From Desulfosporosinus acidiphilus SJ4 (GTDB lineage: Bacteria > Bacillota > Desulfitobacteriia > Desulfitobacteriales > Desulfitobacteriaceae), in contig NC_018068.1 in assembly GCF_000255115.2 (NCBI RefSeq), positions 1,893,977-1,957,976 on the forward strand: a DNA stretch of 64,000 nt. Direction: 5' to 3'. A program made the translations under genes and the position numbers. Of this stretch, positions 2,707 to 19,188 are shown one piece after another; position 1 is the stretch's first letter; every line of letters starts with the position of its first letter. The notes beneath the pieces were generated by a model. That model was not told where the DNA came from, did no database searches, and saw only the letters and a list, made by a program, of their open reading frames with translations.

Positions 2707-3975
2707 CTAGTAGTAAACTAGTATTCTTGAGATACTAGTTTGATGTGCTAAAAGACAAAACACAAAAGAGCCTCCATTGGGTGTATTGCAGAACTCCCAA
2801 TTTTTGCGGCCCGTGGCAAAAATGCGTATGGATCTTTCCGCTGCGGAATTATCGATAGAAATACTGCCATCCACAAGATAACGTTCGAGATAGTCTTGTT
2901 GGTTCAAGGAATAGTTAATAGCCTTACCGATCAGTGAGCCGGAGTCTATCGTTTCAACCATGGATTTTAACCAATCGAAATAAGCATCAAGAATCGGCTT
3001 GCTTTGTTTCAAGGGTTTTTCATACCGTTTTTCAGGCGATTTGTCCTTCAATATAGCTTCAATCTTATAGAGTAATGCAATGCGCTTAAGAGCTTCATCC
3101 GCCGTCGTCCCTTTTCGCTGCTCTTGTGGGATACTCTTCAAGCATTCGTCATATTTACGTCTGGCATGAGCCATGCACCCAGAAATCACGATGTCCTCAG
3201 GAAGACCGCGATAGGCCTGATAACCATCGGTCGTCAGATTTCCGCATACCCTGAGAGAAATTCCTTGGGATGATAGCCACCCCGTGTTGTTTCATACTTG
3301 AATAAGATGACCGGAGGTCCATCGCACAGCTCTCCAGAACGGTAGATCCACATCCAACTCTCAGAAGTTGCCTTGCGGTTCTCTTCATGTAAAACTTGAA
3401 CTCGGGTTTCGTCCGCATGAAGGGTACAGTAGGAAAGTAGATGATGTTTCATCTCATCGTATAACAAGGATAGGTATTCCTCGCTGCAACGGATCATCCA
3501 GTTGGCCATCGTCTGCCTAGACAGATTGACGCCATAACGTTGAAACTCACTTTCGTGATGAGCCAAGGGGACCGAGTTAACATACTTTCCATTCATAATA
3601 GCCGCCACGATGGAGGGAGTAGCTATGCTACCACGGAGCAAGGAAGGATCTTTTTTAGCACGAAGGATATTCCCACAGCTGCTGTCTTCACACCCATAAA
3701 CGGAAACCACATGTTCTTCTCGTTCAAAGTGAGCCGGCACAAAACGCAGATAACTTGTTTTTTCTTCGGTGATCACTTTCAAGGCCTTTCCACAGTGACA
3801 AACACATTCTTCGGCAGAAAGTTTATGTTCTACGCGTACCACAGGAAAATCAGCCAAATCTGCTTCCCGTTTGCCTTTTTTCTTCTTACGCTTATAAGGT
3901 TTTGGAACGACCTCCTCATATTGAGGTTCGGTCGCAGAACTATCCGCAATAGCCTCAGCTTCATTAAAACACAGG
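2707..3975 (-). pseudogene. IS66 family transposase TnpC, truncated and frameshifted
   Basis: Read from 3975 down: an acidic segment, a KRKKKKGKR basic run, a zinc-binding CHCGKAL...C-E-D-SSC region, then TLHADETRVQVL, the DDE segment, and after a frameshift near 3240 DGYQAYRGLPEDIVISGCMAHARRKYDE and SIDNSAAERSIRIFATGRKNW. These are landmark IS66 TnpC segments. The N-terminus (before NEAEAIADSS) and the last part of the C-terminus (after NTPNGG) are missing. No TnpA or TnpB accompanies it. It is a dead remnant. Confidence 0.85.
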
Positions 3976-4009
3976 TGGCGTGTATATCATTTTCATGATA
4001 CTAGTGAAT

Positions 4010-4604
4010 CATCTAGGATTAAAGGGAATTGTGAAATCAATGATAATCGGGTTCTTCGACCTGACGGGTCTAATTTAGCTGCTTTTCTCTACCTACTAAA
4101 AAAAATCATTTTGAACATTATTCCTATATTCTAAAGACTGTACAATTGATAGCCCCATTTATTGAAGACTTTATTTTAGAACCTGTAAAATTGAATCCAG
4201 ACAAGATTCGACTTGAATGGAAACATAAAGAATCTGATAATTATTTTGATATTAGTCAGCTCTCTGATGGCACAATTAGAACTATTTGTATTGCCACATT
4301 GTTATTACAGCCAGATCTTCCTACTTGTATTCTAATTGATGAACCCGAACTAGGTTTGCACCCTTATGCAATTAATATTTTAGGTTCACTTTTTAAAAGT
4401 GTGTCTAAAAATACTCAAATAATTGCTTCAACTCAATCCCTTTTATTAGTTGATCAATTAGAGCCAGAGGATTTAATCGTGGTAGATTACAAGAATGATC
4501 AGTCCATTTTTAAAAGGTCTACTTCTCTAGAGTTAAATGATTGGCTAGAAGTATACTCCTTGGGAGAACTCTGGGAAAAGAATGTCCTTGGAGGTAGACC
4601 ATAG
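4010..4604 (+). pseudogene. OLD/RecF-like AAA ATPase, C-terminal fragment
   Basis: The intact part has the ABC-like signature region (DISQLSDGTIRTICIATLLLQ), the Walker B CILIDEPELGLHP and the D-loop/switch QIIASTQS, as in AAA_21/OLD-type ATPases. In another frame, from about 4010, it begins with NDNRVLRPDGSNLAAFLYLL, a conserved lead-in of the same family. The two parts are joined through an A-run at 4088-4095 that holds eight A where nine would keep the frame. The Walker A half was lost where the IS66 remnant ends. Such ATPases commonly pair with a DUF4276/TOPRIM partner, and the next entry is its remnant. Confidence 0.75.
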
Positions 4605-13464: not shown

Positions 13465-13643
13465 AAGAAAAACCTCCTTTTTAAACTTATTACAATTCGA
13501 TTTTTAGCACAAATTAATTTAAATTAGTGTTCTCAAAAATATTTTATTTCTTCATGTAACATTTTCCATGCGGTCAAAAACAAAATGCCATATATCCCCT
13601 CAGAATGGAAGTCCTAGCCCAGCGGCATAGTAGTTAAGCTTTG

Positions 13644-13672
13644 TTGACAAATTAATATGTCTAACATATAAT
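13644..13672 (+). promoter_or_regulatory. consensus sigma-A promoter
   Basis: TTGACA (13644-13649), 17-base spacer, TATAAT (13667-13672): a perfect vegetative promoter, rare in this window. It drives the structured leader that follows, with a start expected near 13679. Confidence 0.8.
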
Positions 13673-13679
13673 GTAAAAA

Positions 13680-13833
13680 AATTGGATCAATATAAAGATT
13701 TATAGCTTTACTAATAGAGCAGGCGATACACTTCGATAAAGTGTGTGGGGCTGGGCCGGCGGAAGAACTGGCAGCAGGATAAAATACCTGTGGGACTATA
13801 ATTCTAATATAATTAGAATCCCACAGGTATTTT
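13680..13833 (+). ncRNA. candidate structured leader RNA or small RNA
   Basis: From the expected start near 13679 to the hairpin end is about 155 nt without a gene. Helices seen: ACACTT/AAGTGT near 13730-13745, GCTG...CAGC around 13750-13775, and CAGG/CCTG (13775-13790). The last uses the same CCTG as the left arm of the large hairpin at 13781-13833, so the two are mutually exclusive, as in an antiterminator/terminator switch. I do not match it to a known riboswitch class. It could regulate the membrane-protein ORF downstream or be a free small RNA. Confidence 0.45.
13781..13833 (+). terminator. long hairpin at the leader end
   Basis: AAAATACCTGTGGGA (13781-13795) pairs with TCCCACAGGTATTTT (13819-13833), and the interior adds ATTCTAAT/ATTAGAAT, so nearly the whole 53 bases fold back. 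The T-run is short, so it may act as an attenuator as well as a terminator. Confidence 0.6.
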
Positions 13834-13854
13834 CGTTAAATGGGGGTAGCATCT

Positions 13855-14217
13855 GTGAATATGCTGTGTTTTAGCATTATACATAAAAATAAATTTTTTT
13901 GTTTAATATTTCTCTTACTATTTTCGTTGATGTCTGTGTATATGCCTCATAGCTTAGTTGAGAACTCAGAGCAACATATTTATGAAACAACGTTTAATTT
14001 TATTATAAATAATAACAAACCAATTATAAATTTGAGAAATTTACATGAGAAATTAAAGTCATTTATTAGCAAGCTATTTAGAATGACACTAATACTATTG
14101 AATAGGGGCGTTTTAGCAGCTATTCTCATAAATATGTTCATTATGCGACTAGGACGCTTTTCTAAAGAGTCTATTCATCATGCATTCCTTTTCCTCTGTT
14201 TCAAGATCAAAAAATAG
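13855..14217 (+). CDS. hypothetical small membrane protein
   Basis: About 120 residues from GTG 13855, with GGGGGT 7 bases upstream; an ATG lies at 13861. There is one strong hydrophobic segment (FFCLIFLLLFSLMSVYM, about residues 14-30) and another near 80-100 (MTLILLNRGVLAAILINMFIM). No family recognised. It follows the structured leader directly and overlaps the next small ORF by 38 bases in another frame. The protein is AT-rich and low in conserved-looking motifs, so it may not be real. Confidence 0.35.
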   Translation: MNMLCFSIIHKNKFFCLIFLLLFSLMSVYMPHSLVENSEQHIYETTFNFIINNNKPIINLRNLHEKLKSFISKLFRMTLILLNRGVLAAILINMFIMRLGRFSKESIHHAFLFLCFKIKK

Positions 14218-14398
14218 AGGACATTACCCGGATCCGAATCATGGAGGCGGGCATTATAAAAGGCCGCATGGCTCGGGAGGAATACTAGGTAAAATATTTG
14301 AGGCCTTGACAGGTTCGAGAAGGCATTCACTGTCTGGTTCAAATCGCTACGACAGGTATTCTTCGAGTCATCATCATCGTAAGAGTTCATGGTCTTAA
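14180..14398 (+). CDS. small His/Ser/Gly/Arg-rich protein before the kinase
   Basis: 72 residues, strongly basic, with GHYPDPNHGGGHYKRPHGSGG and ending YSSSHHHRKSSWS. It is serine-rich, so it could be a kinase substrate or adaptor. Its last codons overlap the kinase start (ATGGTCTTAA), an arrangement typical of translational coupling, which argues that it is translated. No signal peptide or membrane segment is seen, and the RBS is poor. Function unknown; the link to the kinase is inferred from overlap and composition. Confidence 0.5.
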   Translation: MHSFSSVSRSKNRGHYPDPNHGGGHYKRPHGSGGILGKIFEALTGSRRHSLSGSNRYDRYSSSHHHRKSSWS

Positions 14399-15120
14399 AC
14401 CTATTTAGACGGGACAAATTATTTAATCCGTATGAGCAAATAGCTGATTATACCATCGAGAAAACGATAGGAGAGGGCCGGTTTGGTATCTGCTATCAGG
14501 TTTCTCAGGATCAGAAATCGTATATTCTCAAGCAACTAAAAAGGGGAATGCTCAAGAAAGCCGGAGTAAAGGCTCGGTTTGAGGAGGAAATTCTTAGGAG
14601 CTTACATCATGAGAGCGTTCCTCGGTTTATTAAAAAGATTGAATGTAAGGACTTCTATGGCTACGTACTTGAATTTAAGGCAGGTAAAACGTTCGAAGAT
14701 ATAATTTATCTTGACAAACACGTGTTTGAAAGAGCGGAGATCTATAAAGTAGGACGCCAACTTGTCGAAATTTTAAAGTACTTGCATTCAAAGAGTATAG
14801 TCCATAGAGACATAAGGGTGCCAAATACATTGTATGATGGTCAAAAGGTTAACCTTGTTGATTTTGGGCTTGCTCGTTGGATTAATAACGAGAAATACAG
14901 GGCAGATATGGATTTCGCATTTTTGGGAGACTTTCTTCTGCACCTGTATTACTCTTCTTTTGAACTCAAAGGCTTCAAGAAGCGCCCTTGGTATAACGAA
15001 TTGCTGTTGCAGCCAAAGGAACTGTTACTTTTAAAAAGGCTAATGGGTGTTGATCAACGGTATACAAGTATCTTTGACGTTGAACAAGATTTTCACGAGA
15101 CGTTTGAAGCTAATAAATAA
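14389..15120 (+). CDS. eukaryotic-like protein kinase, compact
   Basis: 243 residues, little more than a kinase core. Seen in order: glycine loop TIGEGRFGICY (about 26-36), an invariant-type Lys in YILKQL (about 48), a Glu in the following helix, VHRDIRVPN (HRD loop, about 138-146) and VDFGLAR (DFG, about 156-162). The catalytic-loop Lys of HRDLKxxN is Arg here, and no clear APE motif follows DFG. There is no transmembrane or PASTA region. It is likely a cytoplasmic Ser/Thr-type kinase of the small bacterial kind; the substrate is unknown. The preceding small serine-rich ORF is a candidate partner. Confidence 0.8.
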   Translation: MVLNLFRRDKLFNPYEQIADYTIEKTIGEGRFGICYQVSQDQKSYILKQLKRGMLKKAGVKARFEEEILRSLHHESVPRFIKKIECKDFYGYVLEFKAGKTFEDIIYLDKHVFERAEIYKVGRQLVEILKYLHSKSIVHRDIRVPNTLYDGQKVNLVDFGLARWINNEKYRADMDFAFLGDFLLHLYYSSFELKGFKKRPWYNELLLQPKELLLLKRLMGVDQRYTSIFDVEQDFHETFEANK

Positions 15121-15762
15121 AGAGGTGTAGTGCAACGGTGGATTAAGAAGAGAGAGTGGGCTTGGGAAAAATCTGATCGTTGCAGCACTTGGCGGAAACA
15201 ACCTAAACTAATCCTTCGTGATTTCTTGGGTCCAAGATTTCAATATCTCCATTTAAATCTCATGAAAGTTTTGAAGTTAAATATATTGACTTAGCATACT
15301 TACACGTTTGGAGATTATATTCAGGAAATTGTGATAAGAACTTAAAAAAGAAATCGTTCATAAGGAAAACTTAAGAAATTAATAAGAAATTATTTAAAAA
15401 AGGCCTATCCCTCTTCGGTAGAATGAAGTTACCGAACGGATGGGCTTATTTTGATTTTTCTCATCGCTTAGTTGAGCCGGACACATCGGGGTATGCGAGA
15501 ATTTTTGCCTTTTTGTATGAAACCAGTCGAAGCTTCTAAATGAAAAATACAGACTTTAGGAGTCTAAACATCATAATTGTGGTAAAATAGTTAATACGGT
15601 TATTTTAGCCCTTTTTTATAGCCGAATTTATAACTAAAAAAATATAAAGCCTTTTTACGACGGGTAAATTGCATAATACTTTATTTTAGCCTTTTGATAC
15701 AGTCATAGATAAAGATGTATAACCCTTGGCTTTGTGTTTTTATAATGGAGTGTAATTTTTTG
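15121..15762. other. non-coding stretch with one terminator
   Basis: About 640 bases without a credible gene. A hairpin near 15131-15190 (GTGCAACG...CGTTGCAGCAC) and the terminator at 15401-15447 are the only clear structures. The rest is AT-rich and holds the promoter region of the FemX-like gene. Confidence 0.5.
15401..15447 (+). terminator. hairpin terminator after the kinase region
   Basis: Outer arms AGGCCTATCC and GGATGGGCTT (with mismatches) and inner arms TCGGTA/TACCGA, then T-rich sequence. Confidence 0.55.
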
Positions 15763-18381: not shown

Positions 18382-19188
18382 TTAATCTAAGGAATTTTGG
18401 ATAGCATTTTCTTGAACTTGTGAAATTGCACCAGCGGATACGAGATTGTCAAGTATGGTTTTCAAATCTGATCCTGACTGCATACCAGTTGAAATGGCAT
18501 TCAGAATATCATCTTCTTGGGTTTGAGTAAGAGAACCTTCAGATACTAAGCTATTAAGGACGATTGAGAACCCATCTTGGTTGCCTTGATCAGGGGTTCC
18601 GTTTGGAGCAGCATCTTTGAGAGCTGTTTCAATAGAGGTTTCTTGGTCTTGAGTGATGGTACCGTCTGAGACTAAGCTATCCAAAGCCGTCGAGAAGCTG
18701 TTGTTGACGTTATGAGTACCCGAGGGTTTAAGAGAATTTAAAACAGAGGTTTCTTGGTCTTGGGTAATGGTGCCAGCTGAGACTAGATTGTCGAGAACAG
18801 ATTGAAATCCGTCATGGTGGTCACCTTGAGCCGGAGCAGCATCTTTGAGAGCTGTTTCAATAGAGGTTTCTTGGTCTTGAGTGATGGTACCACCTGAGAC
18901 TAAGCTATCCAAAGCCGTCGAGAAACCGTTGTCGCCGTTAGGAGCACCTGAGGGTTTAAGAGAATTTAAAACAGAGGTTTCTTGGTCTTGGGTAATGGTG
19001 CCAGCGGAAACTAAAGTATCGAGAACTGTTTTAGGGCCATTATGGTTATCTCTTTTGAAGTTATGCTGAACTTGAGTGGGTGTTGTTGAACTATTGAGGT
19101 TCGTTGTCGTTGCAAATGCTGTTGATGCACTTAGAAGTGTGATAAGAGAAATTGCACCTAAGGCTATCAAAGGTGTGACTTTTTTCAT
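18382..19188 (-). CDS. secreted protein with repeated LVSxGTITQDQE units
   Basis: 268 residues, AAGGGG before the ATG. A signal peptide (MKKVTPLIALGAISLITLLSASTAFA) precedes five or six units of the form TxLDxLVSxGTITQDQETSxxxxLK, separated by short polar linkers rich in N, G, P and D. Alternate units are near copies at DNA level, showing recent duplication. There is no anchor motif, so release or loose wall association is likely. No enzyme motif is seen. The role is unknown; repeat number probably varies between strains. Confidence 0.75.
   Translation of the reverse strand: MKKVTPLIALGAISLITLLSASTAFATTTNLNSSTTPTQVQHNFKRDNHNGPKTVLDTLVSAGTITQDQETSVLNSLKPSGAPNGDNGFSTALDSLVSGGTITQDQETSIETALKDAAPAQGDHHDGFQSVLDNLVSAGTITQDQETSVLNSLKPSGTHNVNNSFSTALDSLVSDGTITQDQETSIETALKDAAPNGTPDQGNQDGFSIVLNSLVSEGSLTQTQEDDILNAISTGMQSGSDLKTILDNLVSAGAISQVQENAIQNSLD

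Follow-up and report, generated by a model that had tools for sequence, protein, structure and literature searches.

Riboswitches of the NiCo (czcD) class, RF02683, for which two later papers cite Furukawa et al. 2015 (PMC7266159, PMC7689651), operate by a ligand-ON antitermination mechanism that has been reviewed for the class (PMC7689651; PMC7266159), and the metal-ligand guanines of their junction are known from the 4RUM RNA (PMC7689651). The ligand is disputed: Ni/Co was assigned from aerobic probing, while later experiments under buffered anaerobic conditions saw the RNA respond to Fe(II) and Zn(II) as well and judged Fe(II) and Mn(II) to be the metals that can bind it in cells (PMC7689651). 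Control of a metal exporter is the usual association of these RNAs, and lies outside the definition of the RNA class. Here, we identify an additional NiCo/czcD riboswitch in a 64-kb stretch of DNA (the window); its class, its structure and the way in which it switches have been described before, and it shares with the class the full aptamer, the invariant junction guanines, and a P4/P1 3' strand that is also the 5' arm of the terminator. The metal-efflux operon of the class is also found in relatives of the present locus; in contrast, the operon in this genome lacks an exporter and consists of ORF A and the genes of a His-rich protein and a Hanks-type kinase (Table 1). What the locus adds is the retention of the riboswitch after loss of the usual exporter, the sole unusual part being that the kinase cassette has been kept.

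Table 1. Features of the riboswitch locus, in window coordinates.
Feature	Position	Strand	Evidence or remark
Sigma-70-type promoter TTGACA-17-TATAAT	13644..13672	+	12/12 consensus match
NiCo (czcD) riboswitch aptamer, P1-P4 four-way junction	13705..13800	+	Rfam RF02683, 61.9 bits, E 8.2e-12
GGG in the P2-P3 junction strand, invariant; probable metal ligands	13753..13755	+	27/27 leaders, alignment positions 49-51
Intrinsic terminator hairpin, 15 bp + inner 7 bp, ending UAUUUUCGUU	13781..13833	+	Incompatible with P4 and P1
GGG in the P4-P1 junction strand, invariant; probable metal ligands	13792..13794	+	27/27 leaders, alignment positions 88-90
Shine-Dalgarno GGGGGT for ORF A	13842..13847	+	7 nt before GTG 13855; GGAGGT in relatives
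ORF A (GTG start), encoding a small membrane-like protein	13855..14217	+	Homologs in all CDF-bearing Desulfosporosinus operons
His/Ser/Arg-rich 72-aa protein	14180..14398	+	Overlaps kinase start; zinc-ribbon domain in remoter homologs
Deletion junction, microhomology TTTC (4 nt)	14199..14202	+	CDF gene and start of His-rich gene missing
Hanks-type Ser/Thr protein kinase, 243 aa	14389..15120	+	PF00069, 4e-26
Probable DedA (VTT) gene relic	15174..15221	+	48 bp with 85% identity to L057:4670-4717, which is part of the DedA gene of L057

The leader lies behind a promoter that an earlier note on this DNA had read as full consensus, and this reading is borne out: all 12 positions match around a 17-nt spacer, the motif is the sole exact match found by scanning the window (at one mismatch or fewer there are 2 sites, against 0.47 expected in 64 kb), and other Desulfosporosinus NiCo leaders carry promoter-like sequence at the equivalent place. 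Transcription would start near 13680 and the leader is about 157 nt long; the stretch 13680-13845 has a folding energy of -52.8 kcal/mol (z = -5.2), a value equalled by 0 of 200 shuffles. The earlier note had left the leader unassigned to any known class, which was wrong, and the covariance-model search that it recommended finds RF02683 at 61.9 bits against a gathering cut-off of 37 bits. The match spans model positions 1-96 of 96 with two non-standard pairs flagged and no more, no Rfam family besides RF02683 was found in the leader, and this is the only NiCo element in the 4.99-Mb genome. The three helices and 15-bp hairpin that had been described in about 155 nt are all present, the helices being P2, P3 and P4, but the helix that closes their four-way junction, P1 (AUAG/CUAU), had been missed. 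The two GGG runs of the junction are probably the equivalents of G45-G47 (13753-13755) and G87-G88 (13792-13794) of the 4RUM RNA.

The 15-bp hairpin has the arms AAAAUACCUGUGGGA and UCCCACAGGUAUUUU and encloses an additional inner stem of 7 bp. Its left arm contains the P4 3' strand (CCUGU), the junction GGG at 13792-13794, which thus does double duty, and, from the P1 3' strand (CUAU), the first base that is paired; most relatives have a terminator stem that takes in this P1 strand entirely. In stepwise folding, the GCAGG/CCUGU helix is in the minimum-free-energy structure of transcripts ending at 13800-13818 and is lost from 13830 on, where the terminator forms instead. The competition previously noticed between a CAGG/CCTG helix and the left arm of the hairpin is thus that of P4 with the terminator. 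The hairpin was not listed by a simple terminator scan, presumably because the loop and stem rules of that scan are unsuited to so long a stem. Two features of the present copy count against the best explanation given below: its U tract (UAUUUUCGUU) is weak, and the 3' arm differs from that of relatives mid-stem.

Both structures are conserved across the 27 leaders aligned, which come from 25 genomes in the genus and order; in every one of them, the P4/P1 3' strand doubles as the 5' arm of a hairpin. For the aptamer, 90.9% of cells in the alignment are paired and 9 pairs show two-sided changes (52 cells, against 13.7 in shuffled alignments, 0/500), with a covariation score of 0.315 against 0.152 for the shuffles, 0 of 500 of which reach it. 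For the terminator, taken as the 17-pair stem of the relatives, 93.9% of cells are paired and 7 pairs show two-sided changes; none of 500 shuffles attains any of these measures, and although kinship among the leaders inflates the shuffle control, the control with slid structures still gives low pairing, at 34-48% (29-53% for the aptamer). Compensatory changes of the kind that the earlier note had suggested looking for are present in both structures, and its proposal of a riboswitch or attenuator arrangement is supported by the NiCo match and by a terminator that is exclusive with P1 and P4, with covariation in each.

We are highly confident that this leader is a NiCo (czcD) metal riboswitch of the transcription-terminating, most likely ligand-ON type that controls ORF A, the His-rich protein and the kinase. 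RNA polymerase would start near 13680 and, without metal, the P4 3' strand together with neighboring junction and P1 bases (ACCUGUGGGA) would pair with UCCCACAGGU to form the terminator, releasing a transcript of about 157 nt as the OFF product. A divalent metal (Ni/Co, or Fe(II)) would instead bind the guanines of the four-way junction and hold P1 and P4 in place, blocking the terminator and allowing transcription of the three genes. The genes downstream of other NiCo loci, which encode CDF exporters and P-type ATPases, support the reading as a metal riboswitch. Because the CDF exporter has been deleted in the present lineage, the output of the switch would now be accessory genes only.

The loss of the exporter is documented by comparison with relatives. 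D. metallidurans, strain BG and L048 all have the gene order NiCo, ORF A, CDF exporter, His-rich protein, kinase, small TM protein and DedA. The deletion junction in the window is supported by an alignment with D. acididurans and by blastn against locus L057, in which window positions 13596-14202 correspond to 1488-2086 and 14199-15151 to 3213-4165; similarity to ORF A stops at the four bases TTTC at which similarity to the His-rich gene sets in, and about 1.1 kb of the sequence of genome G021 is missing in between. The G021 kinase is 97% identical to the window kinase, and the G021 CDF gene is split over three frames. CDF sequence is absent from the operon and from the rest of the window, so that the NiCo element here controls no metal exporter, whereas those of the relatives L046, L047, L048 and L062 do. 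Three apparently full-length and two partial CDF genes lie elsewhere in the genome; of the partial PF01545 matches (G000:C3:4818978-4819169 and 1599151-1599399), one has an in-frame stop and one lies in a 103-aa frame, and exporter genes may therefore be broken elsewhere in this genome too. In another genome (G027), the ORF A homolog at about 1650-2186 of L006 bears an HHHHHQH run behind its first hydrophobic segment, and pieces of ORF A and CDF are inverted nearby, so that this operon seems rearranged.

Of the remaining genes, ORF A had been called a weak open reading frame, and it is indeed short and matches nothing in Pfam or NCBIfam; its homologs, however, keep the start site, with GTG, TTG or ATG at the equivalent place. 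Its dN/dS is about 0.3-0.45, and its C-terminus is altered by the deletion at about 14199. The His-rich protein likewise has no Pfam or NCBIfam match, and the start of its gene probably now lies within ORF A DNA as a consequence of the deletion. The kinase matches PF00069 at 92.3 bits (cut-off 31.7) and, in the kinase alignment, its catalytic residues are intact and invariant (K48, E65, H139-R140-D141, N146 and D158-F159-G160, in the motifs HRDIRxPN and DFG). Its dN/dS of 0.12-0.19 (0.12 against G021) indicates purifying selection. The NCBIfam match to the MADS6 defence kinase was rejected, since its 58 bits, against a cut-off of 460, come from the kinase domain alone. A search for relatives on plasmids found none.

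How much of this operon still matters is open to a competing view, in which the RNA is NiCo by sequence but has controlled nothing useful since the exporter was lost, and the operon is vanishing. Exporter loss, the altered and shortened end of ORF A and a His-rich gene without its native start could all reflect operon decay, as could the reduction of DedA, which follows the kinase in relatives, to a 48-bp relic; moreover, the CDF gene is broken or missing in several sister genomes. We nevertheless consider this view unlikely, since the kinase is intact with a dN/dS of about 0.12 against its nearest relative, the aptamer scores well over the cut-off, the promoter is perfect, and both D. acididurans and G013 have likewise retained NiCo and kinase without CDF.

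Two further readings concern the RNA itself. The earlier note had allowed that the leader might be an independent small RNA, its terminated 157-nt transcript acting in trans; a strong promoter and a terminator would suit such a role, and the OFF state would yield abundant RNA. Yet relatives keep the order of aptamer, terminator and ORF A and also the ORF A start site, and the known mechanism of the class, with this conserved cis arrangement, accounts for every feature, leaving the idea unsupported and, in our estimate, very improbable. We give still less credence to an attenuator that senses another signal, such as a protein, a tRNA or translation of a leader peptide: taken by itself, the antiterminator/terminator layout would fit, but the full-length aptamer match, the invariant junction nucleotides, the lack of any other Rfam family in the leader and the metal exporters downstream in relatives all argue for a metal aptamer.

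The kinase cassette retained under this metal riboswitch recurs in other genomes. A kinase-alignment search, run on the class and on a sample from the wider phylum, gave 18 close loci (E below 1e-90), 12 of which have a NiCo element upstream at no more than about 3.5 kb and on the same strand (G000, G001, G007 C19, G013, G015 C29, G016 C1 and C23, G021, G024, G032, G056 C455 and G165). These 12 have the pair of His-rich/zinc-ribbon protein and kinase behind the riboswitch and represent three bacterial families; most of the links are by descent, yet they span all three. The NiCo elements of G013 and G015 C29 score 34-35 bits, under the cut-off of 37, and no terminator was seen for that of G013. 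One further kinase locus (G014) is cut by a contig end, and in five (G007 C48, G035, G051, G056 C117 and G168) NiCo was not found in the stretch examined. In G165, which belongs to a different family of the phylum, positions 308-5251 of L090 (G165:C9:13500-19000) hold a NiCo element (74.2 bits), a P-type cation ATPase, a 98-aa protein, the zinc-ribbon/His-rich protein, the Hanks kinase and DedA; this is the one case among the NiCo-kinase loci in which a P-type ATPase replaces CDF. On G056 contig 117, one of the five loci where NiCo was not found, the gene in front of the small protein and kinase encodes a GDT1 cation antiporter.

Related arrangements share one half of this design or the other. 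Within the same order, the NiCo riboswitches that precede CDF exporters or P-type ATPases (G012, G020, G032, G035, G048 and others) have the aptamer and terminator design seen here, but the exporter is their first or second gene and the kinase cassette is absent or distal. Conversely, pairs of a small basic protein and a Hanks kinase in G051, G035, G168 and G340 form an adjacent or overlapping two-gene cassette, with the small-protein pattern and kinase as here, and unlike here NiCo was not found beside them. In remoter members the small protein carries double zinc ribbons; it may bind metal or be a substrate of the kinase.

The recurrent link of NiCo with a kinase and a small protein that looks metal-binding suggests that, in these anaerobes, an excess of metal may switch on phosphorylation signaling as well as export. 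We tentatively propose, at somewhat less than even confidence, that NiCo riboswitches control a metal-stress signaling cassette, composed of the Hanks kinase and its His-rich/zinc-ribbon partner (a possible metal buffer or substrate), which moves with CDF, P-type ATPase and GDT1 genes and has been the main output of the present switch since the exporter was lost. If so, this would be a riboswitch-induced protein kinase answering heavy metal. Such a cassette under NiCo control appears to be undescribed: a literature search of titles and abstracts returned no account of a link between NiCo riboswitches and kinases, though the primary NiCo papers were outside its reach and this absence is not proof.

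Three observations were made in passing. In G032, the NiCo-CDF-ribbon-kinase operon has a ZMP/ZTP riboswitch (58.6 bits; L062, 2675-2757, minus strand) behind it, both being on one strand. In the window itself, a secreted-looking, DUF2680-like protein of 268 aa (18382-19188, minus strand) is built of 'LDSLVSxGTITQDQETS' repeats. In G340, positions 3595-4577 of L093 hold a remote pair of an Arg/Ser/Lys-rich small protein and a kinase, and the gene after it encodes a product that we take to resemble Spo0M.
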